Origin: an uncultured Bacteroidota bacterium
GTDB taxonomy: Bacteria; Bacteroidota; Bacteroidia; B-17B0; Aurantibacillaceae
DNA: 64,000 nucleotides
Assembly: GCA_903893815.1 (NCBI GenBank)
Contig: CAITNS010000016.1
Span: forward strand, 62,001-126,000
Reading direction: 5' to 3'
Position 1 is the stretch's first letter. Each line of letters starts with the position of its first letter. The position numbers and the translations under genes are program-made. This document shows, one piece after another, positions 36,716-56,717 of this stretch. Below the pieces are notes generated by a model that was not told the DNA's origin, made no database searches, and worked only from the letters and a program-made list of their open reading frames with translations.

Positions 36716-38433
36716 TGAGAAAATATATAAATACTTTTTGGCTCAGCGCGTGTCTTATACTAATGAGCACCCTTTCGGTACTTATTACAAAACGATACTT
36801 TTCTCAAAGTAGTGTTATAACTATTCAAATAGATTATCAAGCCTATTCCGACGAAGACTTAACTCTATACTGGAACACCAGCAAAGGAATCCATCCAAAA
36901 AATTACTTAACCCAAACTACTTCGATAAAAAAGAACAAATACTCGTATTCTTTGCGAGACGCTGATTCTTTAATTGAAATAAGAATAGATCCCGACACTG
37001 GGTTCATTTTAGCGCATATTAATGAAATTAACATCACTGGTTTAATACAACCAATTAAAATAAATGATTTTAGTAATGTAAAATCAAATGGATTAATTAT
37101 CACCAAAAACAATTCCGGTTACTATATTCAACGACAAGTAAATAATTATGACCCAAATTTCACAATCACTATTCCACCATCAGTAAGACAAGTAAATCAT
37201 CAGCTACTTACTATCGATGTTATTCTGTATATAATATCACTAGTATTTTCGGTACTCCTATTTCTAATATTCAAAACAAAGCTGTTAATGATGTTAGAAA
37301 AACAAAGTCTCAATAAAATTTCACTGATTTTTGTTTTCATTAGTGTCATTTCGAGTTATTGGATAAATAGCGTTTTAAAATTTTATAAAGCACCAGCGAG
37401 TATTGAAAACAGAAAACTTGCTGATAAACCCGAAACAGACAGTGTTTTTCATAAAAGCAAGCTATACTTCGCAAACTACACAACGTGGTTTAATGATCAT
37501 TTCCCCTACAAAAGTATTTTAGTTCACACGAACTCAATATTTAAACTCAACGTATTTAAAACATCCCCAATGCCAAATAGTATGTTTATTGGAAAAAATT
37601 TTGAGTTTTACACATCAAACGAATTATTAAGGGATGATATAACTGGAAAAAAACGATTAACCGATGAAGAAATAAATTACATGTATGGAGTTACTCTGTC
37701 AAAAAAAGTATTTCTCGAAAATCAAAATATCAGCTTTTACTTAACTATACCGCCTTCCAAACAAACAACCTATCAAAACCTACTACCAGATTACTTATCC
37801 TTACAATTAAAAGGAAAAAAAATGGGGCTACAGTTTATTGATAGACTTCGAAAAGAAAATGCGACTTTTTATATCGACGTTATTGATCTATTAAACGAAC
37901 GACACAAAAAATATCCAAAAGAAAAACTATTTTACAAATACGACATCCATTGGAGTGAATGGGGTGCATTTTTAGGTTATCAAAAACTGATTAACACCAT
38001 TAATCTAAAACATCCTTTTGTGGGCAAAGCTTTGAATTTTAATGAAGTGGATTTAAAAATTGAATACAGTAATGATGCTGATTTGGCTAAGTTAATTTTA
38101 ATGCAAAACGAATTCAAAAAAGAACGCTACATTTTTACACCAAAAATAAAAGACACCATTACTGAAACCATGATAAATGGTATTACCCAGTTTCCAATTT
38201 TCAAACACTACAACCCACATGGTAAAGGAAAACTATTGATGTTTAGAGACTCATATACTGAACAATGGCGCAACCTAATAGCCCATCATTTTAAAGAATC
38301 AGTTTTTATATGGGATCCAACTATTTCACAAAAATTAATAAACGAATACAAACCCGATATCGTTATTCAAGAAAATTGCGAGATGTTACTGTTTTATTTA
38401 TTTAATGCTGTTCAAGTAAATGAGCAAAAGTAA
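36715..38433 (+). CDS. AlgJ/AlgX-like SGNH acyltransferase 1
   Basis: A 572-residue membrane-anchored protein. A first helix (about residues 7-25) precedes a beta-rich module of about 130 residues. Two further helices (about 165-187 and 198-216) follow, then the periplasmic SGNH-type domain. Its catalytic elements are present: GKNFEFYTSNE at the domain start, the Asp-His pair in YDIHWSEWGAF and the nucleophile Ser in MFRDSYTEQW. By analogy with AlgJ/AlgX it should transfer the acyl group delivered by the MBOAT protein to the glycan. It overlaps the next gene by 14 bases. Confidence 0.85.
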   Translation: MRKYINTFWLSACLILMSTLSVLITKRYFSQSSVITIQIDYQAYSDEDLTLYWNTSKGIHPKNYLTQTTSIKKNKYSYSLRDADSLIEIRIDPDTGFILAHINEINITGLIQPIKINDFSNVKSNGLIITKNNSGYYIQRQVNNYDPNFTITIPPSVRQVNHQLLTIDVILYIISLVFSVLLFLIFKTKLLMMLEKQSLNKISLIFVFISVISSYWINSVLKFYKAPASIENRKLADKPETDSVFHKSKLYFANYTTWFNDHFPYKSILVHTNSIFKLNVFKTSPMPNSMFIGKNFEFYTSNELLRDDITGKKRLTDEEINYMYGVTLSKKVFLENQNISFYLTIPPSKQTTYQNLLPDYLSLQLKGKKMGLQFIDRLRKENATFYIDVIDLLNERHKKYPKEKLFYKYDIHWSEWGAFLGYQKLINTINLKHPFVGKALNFNEVDLKIEYSNDADLAKLILMQNEFKKERYIFTPKIKDTITETMINGITQFPIFKHYNPHGKGKLLMFRDSYTEQWRNLIAHHFKESVFIWDPTISQKLINEYKPDIVIQENCEMLLFYLFNAVQVNEQK

Positions 38434-50548: not shown

Positions 50549-53500
50549 TTATTGACTTACAACGGGAAACACCAAGATAAAAGTCGTTCCTAAATTAATA
50601 TCAGTTTCAAAAGAAATAGTTCCATTAAAAGACACTACCGAATTTTTTACCATTGCTAAACCTAAGCCAGTACCTGTGGTTTTAGTAGTGAAATTAGGAA
50701 TGAATAAACGATGTGTTAATTCTTCTGCAATACCACAGCCATTATCTTTTACTTTAATCGTCACATAATTTTTATCACCAAATGCTGTGACTTCAATTTT
50801 TCCTTTTCTGTTTTCAGGAATAGATTGCTCTGCATTTTTTAATAAGTTTGTAAATATTCGCAAACACTGTTCTTTATCTGCCATAATTAATAAAGCATCA
50901 GGAGCATTTAATGAAATTTCACACTCAGTATTTTGCTGAAATAAATTGGTAACACTTTGCAATACATCACAAATATTTACCACTTCTAAATTAGTTGTTG
51001 GTAATTTAGCAAAGTTTGAAAACTCTGTTGCGATATGCGACAAAGTATCAATTTGTTCAATTAACATCTTTGATACTTTATTTACTCTATCGGTTATGTC
51101 GTCGGGGTTTGTTTCCACTACTCGCTGTAAATGCTGAATGTTAAGCTTCATTGGAGTTAATGGATTTTTTATTTCATGCGCTACTTGCTTCGCCATTTCA
51201 CGCCAAGCACTTTCTCTTTCTGATTGAGCTAATAGTTCCGAACTCTTTTCTAACTTAATTAACATATTATTGTACTCTACCACTAAGTTTCCAATTTCAT
51301 CTTTCGATTGCCATTGCAAGGCTTCGTTAAATTTACCAAACTGAATGTTTGAAATTTGCTGTTTAATAATTCTTAATGGTTTCGTTAATAAGTTAGATAC
51401 TAATAAAGCGATAAGTGTAGTAATAGCAAACAGAATAGTGTATATGTTAATGAGTGTTGTTAAATAAGCTGTTAATTCTTTTTCTAAATCTTTTTGTCGC
51501 GCAAAATATGGTAAGTTGATATAGCCTAACAATTTGTCGTTTTTACTATAAAAAGGAATATAAGCCGATAAATAATTAAGAGACCCAATGTTTTCTTTTT
51601 GAGTGTAATTTGCTAAAATACCTCGTGTAAGATTCATATAAGCTGATGGATTCATGAACTTAGAAACTAATCCTTGCTCGTAAATAGCAGGCTGAGAAGT
51701 TGCATACAACATGCCTTTTTTACTAAATAAAGAAATATCACTACCAAATAACTGAGCCAACCGCTTTAAACGAAACGTTGTATTGTCTCTATAATTAGGT
51801 TCTAAAGCATTCTGCTGCCCAACCGTTTGCTGCAACTCTTTTAATACCGATTGTGATTTTAAAACTAAGTCCTTTTCGTTTTTCAACTCAAACTGAGAAG
51901 TTACAACCCACACTGTTCCAATAACCACTGCCGCTAAAGAAAGTACCACAATAGATACCAAGATAAACTGAATTCGGTTATTTAAGGAACTAAATCGTTC
52001 GCTACGCTTGATGACAATTGAGTTAAACCAAACAACCAGTAATACTAACAGTGCAAAGAAAATAAATAAATAAGAGTTAGACGTAAATCGGCCCCATGCT
52101 CCAAAAGCTTTATCGGTAATTACAATCGACACATTATTTTTGATACGATATATAAAGTGTTCATACGAATCGCTTGAAGCTGGGTTAAACATATTGTTTT
52201 TAACAAACAAAGGGTATTGATATTCGCCAAAAGTATTGAGCAACTTATTAGATTCATAAACGGCATACGATATTTGTTTAGATTCTAACTTATTTTCTAA
52301 AGATTTATCTAATAACAAATCCGGGAAAGCACCTAAGTTTACTGCTAGTTTAGGCTCTAATTGGATAAACAAGCGAAATGTTTTATCTGGATTTTTATTA
52401 ACGTCTTCAATATCAATTTTAGCAATGTATCGAATCGATTTTTTATCTTTATCAATAAAATACAAATCATCACAAATAGTTTGCGAGCCTCCTTTTTCAA
52501 TTTGATCTTTAAAATAATCTTCATTTAAATACATCGCATTTAAATGAATAAAAATTGGCGTGCAATCATTTTTAAACAGAGACATCACAATTTCATACCG
52601 CTCAAAATAACCGCTAAAATTTCGCTGCCTTATATTTTGTTCAATTTGTTCATTACTTAATTGTAATTGCGATAATAAATTTTTTAATTGTGCATCCGAT
52701 TTAATGGCACTGCTAATTTTGTTAAATTCATTTTCAGCAATCACATCTTGCCTATCTGTTAAGCCTAATGAAATAGCTTCGTAGGTTTGTTTTTTATTTA
52801 ACTGCTCATATTTACTAAATAAAGTAGATACAATAAATGTAGACATCAATAAAATCAAACCAATATTTATAAAATTGTATGTAGCCTTAAACCGTCTTAA
52901 AAAATAAGAGATTAGCACTAACAATAATGGCCACAAATAATCGAACACATGAAACTGATTTGATTTACTTAACACAAAGACGGTAGCGATGCATATTATT
53001 GAAAAAGAAAATAAGATTCCAACAAAATTTTTGTAATCAATGTACATAGAAATAAATTTATCTAAACACAAGTAAAAAGCAAAAATTAAAAAGCCAACGG
53101 ATAAAATTCCAATTAAACTATAAGCACTAAAATTAAATAACTCATTAATGTTATACGATATAGTAGAGTTATTTACCAAACTAAAAATCAATAATCGAAT
53201 TTGCAAAGAAGACAAAATGATAACAAAAACAAATAATACATCTACCGATAATTGCAAAAAACTATTTTTAATGGAGATGCCTTTTGGTATTTTATAAATT
53301 AAGGTTGATATTAAAAAAATCAAAGCGCTATTAATTAATACATCACCCAAATACGAGAAATAAAATGAAGATGCATTGGCAAAAATTTTAGCGTCATACA
53401 AGCCTCCGTCATAAAAATCAGCAGGAATTTTAAAATAAATCATCAAGGAGCGAATTGCCAAGCAGGCCGAACTAAAAGCAATCACAAATAAAATTTCATT

Positions 53501-54214
53501 TTGAATTTTAGCTTTCAAAAACAAAAATAAAGACCATAAAAACAAAATGCAGGCAATGATATAAATAAAACAAGCGTAAGTATTTGAACTTTTACTTTTA
53601 AATAAGCCATCTTCTCTATAAACTTCAAATAAGGGCGGGCCAAACTTTGACTTAACAGCATGATCCAAATAATTAATAGGCGTAATTAATTTAGTATTTT
53701 CGGGTAACTGAAGCCATTTACTGAAATTATTATTCAAGTATCTATTTTCAAAATCATACTCCGGTTTAATAGAAATGAGCGCAACTAAGGTGTAATTTAA
53801 TTTCTGGTCGGTTTCCTGTTTAATGTATTCGTACCAACCATTGCGCATTTTTATGAGTTGCAAATCTGTTTCGTTGGTATAAGCAAATAAATCTACGGCA
53901 GGTTGGTTATCCGACCAATAACACAAGCTATCATTACTATATACATAAACAGCAATGCCTTCATTTTTATATAAATCTGAAATGATGCCATTGTATTTTA
54001 CAAACAAATCACTTGGTTTGGTATCTTTTAAAGCATTAGATAGCAGATCTAAATGAGATTTGGCAATAACTTCCTTGGCATGAAGTCGCTTTTCGGCAAC
54101 AGCCACTAGCTCCTTAGTTGTGTAATTATTGCTTTGAGATAAAAAATAGGAAAAAACGGCGCATAATAGGCCACAAGAAAAAATAACATATAATTTAAAA
54201 GGGAGCTTTTTCAT
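50549..54214 (-). CDS. Very large NtrY-like sensor histidine kinase
   Basis: A 1221-residue inner-membrane kinase. It has about ten predicted membrane helices: one near the N-terminus, a bundle at about residues 215-470 after a first extracytoplasmic domain, and two more around a second such domain. A HAMP-like segment (LTKPLRIIKQQISNIQF) follows, then the HisKA domain with the phospho-accepting His in QVAHEIKNPLTPMKLNIQHL. The HATPase domain has the N-box NLLKNAEQS, DNGCGI and TTGTGLGLAM. NPLTPMKLNIQ is typical of NtrY-type kinases. No response regulator gene adjoins it, so it is an orphan kinase whose signal is unknown. Confidence 0.9.
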   Translation of the reverse strand: MKKLPFKLYVIFSCGLLCAVFSYFLSQSNNYTTKELVAVAEKRLHAKEVIAKSHLDLLSNALKDTKPSDLFVKYNGIISDLYKNEGIAVYVYSNDSLCYWSDNQPAVDLFAYTNETDLQLIKMRNGWYEYIKQETDQKLNYTLVALISIKPEYDFENRYLNNNFSKWLQLPENTKLITPINYLDHAVKSKFGPPLFEVYREDGLFKSKSSNTYACFIYIIACILFLWSLFLFLKAKIQNEILFVIAFSSACLAIRSLMIYFKIPADFYDGGLYDAKIFANASSFYFSYLGDVLINSALIFLISTLIYKIPKGISIKNSFLQLSVDVLFVFVIILSSLQIRLLIFSLVNNSTISYNINELFNFSAYSLIGILSVGFLIFAFYLCLDKFISMYIDYKNFVGILFSFSIICIATVFVLSKSNQFHVFDYLWPLLLVLISYFLRRFKATYNFINIGLILLMSTFIVSTLFSKYEQLNKKQTYEAISLGLTDRQDVIAENEFNKISSAIKSDAQLKNLLSQLQLSNEQIEQNIRQRNFSGYFERYEIVMSLFKNDCTPIFIHLNAMYLNEDYFKDQIEKGGSQTICDDLYFIDKDKKSIRYIAKIDIEDVNKNPDKTFRLFIQLEPKLAVNLGAFPDLLLDKSLENKLESKQISYAVYESNKLLNTFGEYQYPLFVKNNMFNPASSDSYEHFIYRIKNNVSIVITDKAFGAWGRFTSNSYLFIFFALLVLLVVWFNSIVIKRSERFSSLNNRIQFILVSIVVLSLAAVVIGTVWVVTSQFELKNEKDLVLKSQSVLKELQQTVGQQNALEPNYRDNTTFRLKRLAQLFGSDISLFSKKGMLYATSQPAIYEQGLVSKFMNPSAYMNLTRGILANYTQKENIGSLNYLSAYIPFYSKNDKLLGYINLPYFARQKDLEKELTAYLTTLINIYTILFAITTLIALLVSNLLTKPLRIIKQQISNIQFGKFNEALQWQSKDEIGNLVVEYNNMLIKLEKSSELLAQSERESAWREMAKQVAHEIKNPLTPMKLNIQHLQRVVETNPDDITDRVNKVSKMLIEQIDTLSHIATEFSNFAKLPTTNLEVVNICDVLQSVTNLFQQNTECEISLNAPDALLIMADKEQCLRIFTNLLKNAEQSIPENRKGKIEVTAFGDKNYVTIKVKDNGCGIAEELTHRLFIPNFTTKTTGTGLGLAMVKNSVVSFNGTISFETDINLGTTFILVFPVVSQ

Positions 54215-54238
54215 TTATATCAATACGTCCTATTTTAT

Positions 54239-54366
54239 TTACTGTAAATTGCGTCAGTTCGAGTAAGCGCTGCCTCTTTGCGCTATATCGAGAACTTTAC
54301 TGTTTACTTCTCGATACACATTTGCAAAAGACAGGCAAATGCACTCGAAGTGACATTTTACAGTAA
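54239..54366. repeat. 128-bp element with inverted-repeat ends and inner hairpins (MITE-like)
   Basis: The left end TTACTGTAAATTGCGTCAG and following TTCGAGT match the complement of the right end, ACTCGAAGTGACATTTTACAGTAA, over about 26 bases with few changes. Inside are three more inverted pairs: AGCGC/GCGCT, TCGAGAA/TTCTCGA and ATTTGC/GCAAAT. There is no ORF. It fills most of the gap between the divergent kinase and TMTC-like genes. It could be a non-autonomous mobile element or a structured repeat. Confidence 0.65.
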
Positions 54367-54447
54367 TTAAACACATTTATCTTAGGGCAATTTACTGTTT
54401 TTTAACTAATTTTTTGACTGTAAAAATCATTTTTTTGAAGTTTTAAG

Positions 54448-54476: not shown

Positions 54477-56717
54477 ATGGCTAAACAAACTACGAGTACA
54501 AAACAACCGGTTTTTCAAGAACTGAAAAATACGTTTCATTTTTTCCCGTTTAAAAATCAAGCAGCTCCGTTTATTGTTATTATCCTATTAGGGTTAATTT
54601 TCAATTTAACCTCTTTGCATAACGAGTATGCCTTAGATGATGGTATTATTATTCATCAAAACGACCACGTTATTAAAGGTATAAAAGGTATTAAGGATAT
54701 TATGACCAAAGATGCCTACGAAAGTTTTTACCGTAGAATGAATGCAACCGATCAATTAGCAGGTGGTCGTTACCGTCCGTTATCTGTTGTGAGTTTTGCT
54801 ATTGAGCAAGAATTTATTGGAGCATATCCAAAAGATGGTTTATATCCTCAACGTTGTTGGGATACTAATCAAAATAAAAAAGATGATGTAGAAGAAGATA
54901 TTAATGATGATGGTGTATTTAACGAAGTAGATTGCCAAGTAAAAGGCGCTTCTTTACGTCACTTTGTAAATATCATTACCCTTATTATTGGAGTGATGTT
55001 ATTATTCTTGTTTTTTAGAAATTACATTTTTAAGGACAATCACGATTTAGCCTTTCTAGCAGCCTTAATATTTTTAATGCATCCTATTCACTCCGAGGCC
55101 ATTGCCAATGTAAAAAGTCGGGATGAAATTTTTTCACTCATATTTATTTCCCTAACATTCTTCTTCTCCTTTAAATACATGAAGGATAAAAACACTAAAA
55201 CCTTATTTTGGGCAGCCTTTAACTTTTTATTAGCCCTATTGTCAAAAGAATACGCCGTTGTATTAGTGATGCTAATTCCTATTGCATTTTTTGTTTACGG
55301 AGAAATTGATTTTGATCCAAAAACATTCTTTCAATCAAAAGAGTTTAAACAAGCTTTATCGTTATTTGGAATTTTCTTTGCCTGTGCCTTGCTGATGTTG
55401 TTGGTAAAACGAAACTCCGATATGCACATTCAACCCGGACAAAAAGCAACAACCTCATATTGGATTTTCCCATTTGTGTATTTAGCTATTGGTGTATTTG
55501 TGATTGGTTCTAAAATCAAAACTAAGTTTGCAACCTTAATGAGTTGGCATTTCTTTATCATGTTGTTTTATTTAGGAATGCGTTTGGTAGCCGTTAAATT
55601 AAAACCAGGTGTACCTGATACAGAGATTTTAAATAACCCATACTTATTAGCCTCTCAACATGAGCAATGGGCAACAAAAGTATATGTATTATTAAAATAC
55701 TTTACCTTATGTTGGTTCCCTCACCCATTATCTTCTGATTATTCATTTAACACAATTCAGTTCCGCACCTTTGCAAGTTGGGACACTTTAGTATCATTAG
55801 TATTACACATTGGTTTATTGATAGCAGGCGTAAAATTAGTTTTAAAGAAACATACTTTAGGTTTTGCTATTGCTGTGTACTTTGCCTTTTTATTAATGAT
55901 TGGTAATATTTTAATGGATATTGGTGCTACTATGGGTGAGCGTTTATTATTTCACTCAACCATTGGATTTGTGATTGCTTTTGCATGGTTAATATTAAAA
56001 GGAGTTGACAAAATACCAGGTAACTTAATGGTTAAGCGTAGCGTTTTCTTTTTATTATTAGGAACCATGACTTTCCTTTATGGTTGTAAAACTTGGGAGC
56101 GTAACTGGGATTGGAAAAACGATATTACTTTATTCTTAAAAGATGTAGAAACGGTTCCAAACTCTGTATTAGTATTAGGTAATGCTGGAGCACGTTATAT
56201 TGACTTATCGGATACAAAAAACTTTGTAGCTAAACGCGAGGAATCTTTAGAAAAAGGGATTAAGTATTTAAAACATGCTATTGAGTTGCACCCACGTTAC
56301 GTAAACGGTTATTTAAATTTAGGTTTAGGTAGCTACAAATTAAAACGTGATAGAGACGCTTTATTTTACTGGAAACAAGCAGAAGCGTTGTATCCAAACA
56401 ACCCGTACTTAAAAAATTATTATATCGTCATGTATAATGATTTATTAAATAGAGGTTACCAAAAAGCACAACGTGGCCAACTGGATAGTGCTATTTATGA
56501 ATTAAGAAAAACCATCATCTTAGATAAATTAAACCCAGAAGGTTTTTATAATTTAGGTGGAGCTTATTACCAAAACAAACAATACGATAAAGCAAAAATT
56601 TATTGGGAACAATGTTTAAAATTAAAACCTGACCATGTGCAAGCAAAATCTGGTTTAGCAACCATTGTAACGGTAACGGTGCCAACGCCACCTCAACCGC
56701 AAGGGATAAAAAAATAA
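54477..56717 (+). CDS. TMTC-like membrane protein with C-terminal TPR repeats
   Basis: A 746-residue protein with about ten membrane helices followed by TPR repeats (about residues 590-730, for example KYLKHAIELHPRYVNGYLNLG and AKIYWEQCLKLKPDHVQAKS). FLMHPIHSEAIANVKSRDEIFSLIF matches the conserved loop of TMTC/Pmt-type (GT-C) glycosyltransferases, which use polyprenyl-phosphate sugars to glycosylate proteins. An Asp-rich insert (NKKDDVEEDINDDGVFNEVD), resembling a calcium-binding dockerin-like loop, sits in the first periplasmic loop. A protein O-glycosylation role, as known in Bacteroidota, is plausible but inferred. Confidence 0.78.
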   Translation: MAKQTTSTKQPVFQELKNTFHFFPFKNQAAPFIVIILLGLIFNLTSLHNEYALDDGIIIHQNDHVIKGIKGIKDIMTKDAYESFYRRMNATDQLAGGRYRPLSVVSFAIEQEFIGAYPKDGLYPQRCWDTNQNKKDDVEEDINDDGVFNEVDCQVKGASLRHFVNIITLIIGVMLLFLFFRNYIFKDNHDLAFLAALIFLMHPIHSEAIANVKSRDEIFSLIFISLTFFFSFKYMKDKNTKTLFWAAFNFLLALLSKEYAVVLVMLIPIAFFVYGEIDFDPKTFFQSKEFKQALSLFGIFFACALLMLLVKRNSDMHIQPGQKATTSYWIFPFVYLAIGVFVIGSKIKTKFATLMSWHFFIMLFYLGMRLVAVKLKPGVPDTEILNNPYLLASQHEQWATKVYVLLKYFTLCWFPHPLSSDYSFNTIQFRTFASWDTLVSLVLHIGLLIAGVKLVLKKHTLGFAIAVYFAFLLMIGNILMDIGATMGERLLFHSTIGFVIAFAWLILKGVDKIPGNLMVKRSVFFLLLGTMTFLYGCKTWERNWDWKNDITLFLKDVETVPNSVLVLGNAGARYIDLSDTKNFVAKREESLEKGIKYLKHAIELHPRYVNGYLNLGLGSYKLKRDRDALFYWKQAEALYPNNPYLKNYYIVMYNDLLNRGYQKAQRGQLDSAIYELRKTIILDKLNPEGFYNLGGAYYQNKQYDKAKIYWEQCLKLKPDHVQAKSGLATIVTVTVPTPPQPQGIKK

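Follow-up and report, generated by a model that had tools for sequence, protein, structure and literature searches.

An intergenic REP doublet of an uncultured Bacteroidota bacterium is built like the repeat pair that brackets a small GIY-YIG endonuclease gene

CGTC-tagged REPs, a group that includes dRS3 of Neisseria and RPE-4 and RPE-6 of Rickettsia (Di Nocera 2013, PMC3733652), have been reported to lack a dedicated transposase, and the way in which they spread was left open (PMC3733652). For the doublets known as REPINs, a distinction has been raised between a two-hairpin form and a single long hairpin (PMC3116915), and TnpA-Y1 subclass 2.6 (RAYT group 5) of Bacteroidetes has been described as having atypical flanking structures (PMC6006769). 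The stretch of DNA analyzed here, a window of 64,000 nucleotides, carries a 128-bp block at 54239-54366 that is composed of two units of the same kind, inverted relative to each other so that both feet point outward. Unit A bears a CGTC foot and unit B a TGTC foot, in agreement with the tag of CGTC REPs (CGTC or TGTC/CCTC at one foot). Of the CGTC stem features (8-9 continuous bp that start with an AT pair, a loop of 4-5 nt and a CCA-like tail), only the first A-T pair is found. Because the A+N4 outer stem of the units leads through a tandem G.A step into an inner stem that varies, the window family is placed outside families CGTC-1 to CGTC-4, as a relative of them.

No ORF covers the block, which lies between a histidine-kinase gene on the left (50549-54214, minus strand) and a TMTC/TPR-like gene on the right (plus strand, ATG at 54480). 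The location, the folding, the lack of an ORF and the divergent flanking genes given in the preliminary description were all confirmed. As single-stranded DNA, region 54229-54376 has a predicted folding energy of −33.2 kcal/mol, while its shuffles average −12.3 (sd 2.7, z −7.67) and none of 200 does as well. From the outside to the inside, the predicted block fold consists of a TTACTGTAAA/TTTACAGTAA stem, GTCA.TTCGAGT paired with ACTCGAA.TGAC, and three inner hairpins. Both units follow a common plan, [C/T]GTC-A-N4-GA-G...C-GA-N4', in which the inner stem and loop are variable and the tandem G.A geometry is our reading of the sequence. Unit A (54253-54295, plus strand, GTCAGTTCGAGTAAGCGCTGCCTCTTTGCGCTATATCGAGAAC) is of the G-type and comprises a C-GTC foot, an A, a GTTC/GAAC outer stem, the tandem G.A and the variable inner stem AGCGC..GCGCT. 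It is followed by the spacer TTTACTGTTTA (54296-54306; mostly 10-15 bp in other dimers) and by the C-type unit B (54307-54354, minus strand, GTCACTTCGAGTGCATTTGCCTGTCTTTTGCAAATGTGTATCGAGAAG), which comprises a T-GTC foot, an A, a CTTC/GAAG outer stem, the tandem G.A and the inner stem CATTTGC..GCAAATG. N1-N1' covariation in the family supports both units. The core CTCGAAGTGAC, recognized earlier as common in Bacteroidota repeats, is indeed the foot-proximal half of such a repeat. The ends of the element were placed differently in the preliminary description, at the TTACTGTAAA arms. These arms (left, 54239-54248; right, 54357-54366) are private to the window copy, with no counterpart in 46 dimers and no general flank complementarity in these dimers outside the GTCA feet, and they are thus not ends held in common with other copies. 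Copies of the family share their unit boundaries at the GTCA feet, which in the window fall at 54253 and 54354. A search for a second doublet of this type across the window found none, and a half-site at 37345-37410 was rejected as a real unit since it sits within a coding gene. Separately, five TTTACTGT-like motifs occur in about 200 bp (54238, 54295, 54358, 54390 and 54423; region 54239-54440); the one at 54390, which many relatives keep, is a possible promoter or regulator site.

The dispersal of the family is evident within and beyond the genome of origin. Partial relatives of the block are found on contigs C53 and C70 of the same genome, and in pattern searches, which underlie all genome-wide repeat counts, the core TTCGAGT(12-42)TATCGAGAA is present in 12 of 20 genus genomes, with a maximum of 50 per genome. 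The reversed control pattern gave no match over the genus genomes. The pattern is also widespread in Flavobacteriales, including Flavobacterium, Chryseobacterium, Lutibacter, Maribacter, Winogradskyella and others. A fuzzy rule collected 184 units in the genus, where 64 of 79 neighboring unit pairs are oriented foot-outward, the head-out (HH) dimer arrangement of CGTC REPs. A G-type unit is paired with a C-type unit in 56 of the 64 foot-outward doublets, and a T precedes GTC on each side in 39/46 dimers. The inner sequences of the units are diverse (282 distinct among 288), with loops and inner stems that vary freely, and 128 of the 288 units fold better than all 20 of their own shuffles. Structural constraint is apparent in the first pair of the outer stem, which is Watson-Crick in 117 of 122 genus units (59 expected if independent) and in 143 of 166 units of other genomes (60 expected if independent). 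The units of one genus genome, G010 (C7:115691-116004 and C8:63949-65568), are mostly single and share one orientation, with intervals of about 115-270 bp where they cluster more closely, and may represent a decayed or tandemly amplified form of the family.

The block is missing in every relative that retains the kinase/TMTC pair. In the nearest relative, G019, in which the kinase is 97% identical over the stretch compared, the empty site reads TTTTTCATTTATAT-TA-TAGGGCAATTTACTG, and the window genome has 162 additional bases there. Alignment of the filled and empty sites places this whole insert at 54221-54382, and the window block is a recent insertion. The proposal of a non-autonomous mobile element is therefore upheld to the extent that relatives of the block are scattered in its own genome and genus and its site is empty in relatives, cleanly so in G019. 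The same two results contradict the idea of a single copy conserved only with the kinase/TMTC promoter. An imperfect 9-bp direct repeat flanks the insert, with a left copy, CATTTATAT (54212-54220), that overlaps the kinase start codon and a right copy, CATTTATCT (54374-54382); this repeat is only suggestive because it is not a general family feature. Across the family, direct repeats have a mean of 6.8 compared to about 6.0 in mismatched flanks, and the excess comes from arrays. The insert extends 32 and 28 bp beyond the feet, where the TTACTGTAAA palindrome arms are located, and these segments lie outside what the nuclease model presented below explains. REP dimers within palindromes have been described in A. 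variabilis and H. neapolitanus (Di Nocera et al., PMC3733652), to which the palindrome around the window doublet may be analogous. In G003, a relative identical to MAG UBA5697 (100%) over 1,957 bp, locus L110 (C11:5813-5901) likewise contains a REP doublet that seems to occupy the loop of a hairpin resembling a terminator, GAGGCTGTTT...AAACAGCCTC. A degenerate doublet of the same family on contig C70 of the window genome (L003, G000:C70:2478-2597) also has an empty site in G019. The clean empty sites are these two G019 sites only; the joined-flank search with the elements of G003 recovered orthologous spans in relatives that are mostly too diverged for boundary placement.

To find genes associated with the repeats, ORFs around 214 repeat loci were clustered without prior choice of gene. 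The most widespread family encodes an ABC ATPase that is also found in unrelated chance loci. The second most widespread is a GIY-YIG protein of 95-105 aa, present at 10 loci in several genera, each of which is in or near a repeat array. The window genome contains one such gene (G000:C53:102020-102310, 97 aa) with intact catalytic residues. It is bracketed by outward-footed units, the arrangement that defines the element proposed below, and these units (C53:101766-101832 and 102526-102569) are the best C53 relatives of the window element detected by BLAST. The window doublet is built like this unit pair. To evaluate the association, GIY-YIG genes were gathered from genus, phylum and plasmid records by protein homology only, with their flanks disregarded. 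Under a strict rule that demands a GTC hairpin with an outward foot in each flank, no more than 300 bp away, 46 of 80 genes are bracketed, compared to 0 of 692 control positions (Fisher 1.4e-52); the rule was written after the units had been seen, and the weight of this result is carried by the control comparison and the flank-blind choice of homologues. When no unit rule was imposed and the two flanks were compared for their best inverted repeat, this repeat exceeds the threshold at 47 of 66 loci and at 9 of 308 control positions, and the best flank matches are mostly GTCA units. In minimal elements (L337, L360, L338 and L350), a single outward-footed unit lies on either side of the gene, and this pair is usually a G/C heteropair, as in free doublets. 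Several bracket types occur in the genus, namely long TTCGAGT units, short GTCA[GC]TTCGAGCGNAGTCGAGAA[CG] units, GTCACCCTGAGCGGAGTCGAAGGG with GTCAGGCTGAGCGGAGTCGAAGCC, and CATGCTGAACT stems. The strict rule leaves 34 of the 80 genes unbracketed, some of which carry variant units that it misses, as in Methylobacterium, Sphingomonas parapaucimobilis and Planktothrix. No brackets were seen at the genes of Legionella, Cupriavidus, Xanthomonas and Sphingomonas paeninsulae, where they seem to be truly lacking, and no relative of the gene is detectable in G010, which has nine units.

Outside Bacteroidota, the evidence is drawn from plasmid records. Inverted repeats are present in both flanks of 12 of 14 further relatives from this collection, and 10 of the 14 have strict CGTC-type hairpins. 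Classic CGTC brackets are observed in Rhizobium, Sinorhizobium meliloti, Shinella, Neorhizobium, Azospirillum, Novosphingobium, Sphingobium, an Aeromonas record and Neisseria gonorrhoeae, with bracketing repeats such as CGTCATTCCCGCGCAGGCGGGAATCC (dRS3 type) and CGTCATCCTCGGGCTTGACCCGAGGATCCA. At the Neisseria gonorrhoeae locus (L435, NZ_CP119142.1, 1880519-1883173), dRS3-type CGTC repeats bracket the GIY-YIG gene, which may explain the spread of dRS3 in this genus. In Azospirillum lipoferum 4B (L437, plasmid AZO_p3, 254312-256978), a GIY-YIG gene with CGTC REP dimers on both sides is situated between sufB and sufC of the suf operon. Four loci of another GIY-YIG clade (MKGYMYILEC...; L351, L354, L355 and L356) have flank inverted repeats, GGCTTCGAGAGCCTCAGCCACC or GCTTCGACTCCGCTCAGCCACC, without a GTC foot, which are perhaps another cognate repeat type.

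The type of REP follows the lineage of the GIY-YIG protein. On a tree of 44 bracketed proteins, five REP classes require 7 changes compared to 25.6 for shuffled labels, and none of 200 shuffles is as low; the classes were set by simple text rules that, for example, mislabelled L372 through a chance stem, and near relatives would cluster in any case. The informative case is that of two sister clades in the genus, one with the long and the other with the short REP type: both clades have genes in G003 and in G008, and every such gene is accompanied by the REP type of its clade. Pairing of gene and cognate repeat is thus lineage-specific. Counts of long-type units, made by hand, are higher in the four genomes that have a long-type gene (p 0.003). 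Across the phylum, long-type units co-occur with GIY-YIG genes (30/32 vs 203/364, p 7e-6, counted by hand); this is weak evidence, given how widespread the gene is and how few of the relatives are assigned to a clade. The catalytic residues Y8, Y18, G20, R28 and E66 are invariant in all 44 proteins.

Taken together, the block is probably a non-autonomous REP doublet mobilized by the GIY-YIG nuclease, a reading in which the association is observed and the enzymatic step is inferred. In the proposed mechanism, the protein would recognize the [C/T]GTC foot and its hairpin, either as single-stranded DNA or as an extruded cruciform, and would nick at the GTC foot of the cognate hairpin. Through repair or replication, a copy of the element, or the element itself, would subsequently arrive at another intergenic site. 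Two forms would be mobile in this way: the autonomous unit-gene-unit element of about 390 bp and, as its non-autonomous counterpart, the free doublet. The opposite G and C types of the two units may hinder pairing between units and so favor a two-hairpin (clover) form over one long hairpin. The bracketed gene suggests itself as the missing enzyme for repeats published as having none. By extension, and with somewhat less confidence, the CGTC/GTCA-tagged REPs of Bacteroidota, Proteobacteria and Cyanobacteria may well belong, as its non-autonomous arm, to a distinct class of minimal mobile element in which two hairpins enclose one GIY-YIG nuclease gene and movement relies on structure-specific nicking, not on HUH or DDE chemistry.

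In the main rival explanation, the REPs are moved by some other activity, and the GIY-YIG gene is a passenger for which REP clusters are preferred insertion targets or safe sites. Association alone is compatible with this reading, as are the GIY-YIG genes without REPs and the genomes with REPs and no gene. It is considered unlikely, since the minimal element has exactly one outward-footed unit per side, usually as a heteropair like that of free doublets, and the REP type follows gene lineage even inside one genome; moreover, bracketed genes of one clade occupy different genomic contexts. Movement of the doublet by a REP-associated tyrosine (HUH) transposase, as for GTAG REPs, is improbable. 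The ssDNA-foldable inverted doublet matches the architecture of REPINs (PMC3116915), and Y1/HUH genes, some REP_Tyr_transpos-like, are present in 12 of 20 genus genomes, but the family foot is GTCA and not GT[AG]G, no RAYT gene is flanked by the repeats, no unit lies within about 1.5 kb of any Y1 gene in the genus, no repeat locus contains a Y1/HUH gene, and two genomes with repeats (G010 and G016) have no Y1 match. A RAYT/HUH partner was accordingly rejected after Pfam Y1_Tnp and protein searches revealed no family repeats adjoining such genes. Two genus genomes do contain RAYT-like Y1 genes of the Bacteroidetes type (L060, L068 and L069; YIHNNP/YIHQNP), with no family unit nearby.

Two further readings are much harder to sustain than a nuclease-mobilized doublet. 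In the first, the block would be a MITE derived from a classical IS, bounded by terminal inverted repeats and a duplicated target, which would account for the imperfect direct repeats around the window insert. This is very improbable given that the duplication is neither general nor constant in the family, that no IS with the ends of the block was found and no parent IS is present among the ORFs around the repeats, and that each unit folds internally into a hairpin and has an asymmetric foot. Least credible is selection of the block at the kinase/TMTC locus as a cis-acting RNA or a promoter element, which the strong fold and the position between divergent genes would favor. As a primary identity, such an element is refuted by the absence of the block from relatives that have the gene pair, by the dispersal of its relatives in unrelated contexts and by the lack of an Rfam match: one Rfam search returned five chance-level matches below gathering and a further search none, leaving the structured RNA suggested in the preliminary description without support. 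A secondary effect of the block on the kinase or TMTC promoter is possible.

The REP doublets themselves are of a known kind; the link to a GIY-YIG protein is the new part, and its mechanism stands as a candidate read from sequence. This link was not found in the open full-text literature (preprints and subscription papers lie outside this scope, and priority is unproven), where a Moraxella paper that contains both terms gives them as separate genes. With a small, conserved candidate enzyme and its cognate DNA named, the spread of CGTC REPs, including dRS3, becomes directly testable. If the proposal is true, the GIY-YIG fold would become a further enzyme class behind the movement of short mobile DNA, and there would be a reason why many GIY-YIG genes with no annotation beyond "nuclease family protein" occur in several copies and lie between the genes of operons.

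Compared with CGTC REPs, the window family shares the CGTC/TGTC tag at one foot, the A-T first pair, the mostly head-out and often heterodimeric arrangement and an intergenic location in many unrelated species, and classic CGTC repeats are found bracketing genes of the same GIY-YIG family. Its units depart from the plain 8-9 bp stem and 4-5 nt loop of CGTC REPs in that a short outer stem leads through a tandem G.A step into an inner stem that varies, and whereas no enzyme was given for CGTC REPs (PMC3733652), a candidate is proposed here. Among solved structures, the nearest are those of the UPF0213/YhbQ-type small GIY-YIG proteins (PDB 1ZG2 and 1YWL, both UPF0213), sequence relatives of the GIY-YIG gene that are hypothetical proteins with no stated link to repeats. 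TnpA-Y1 subclass 2.6 occurs in the same phylum as the window family, and such genes are present in the genus without these units nearby. The GTAG REPs and REPINs with RAYT (REPtrons; PMC3116915, PMC6006769) resemble the present system in that inverted doublets are the apparent mobile unit, the enzyme gene is bracketed by its own repeats and the repeat type follows the enzyme lineage. The two differ in foot and associated enzyme: a GT[AG]G foot and an HUH tyrosine transposase in REPtrons, and a GTC(A) foot and a candidate GIY-YIG nuclease in the window family.
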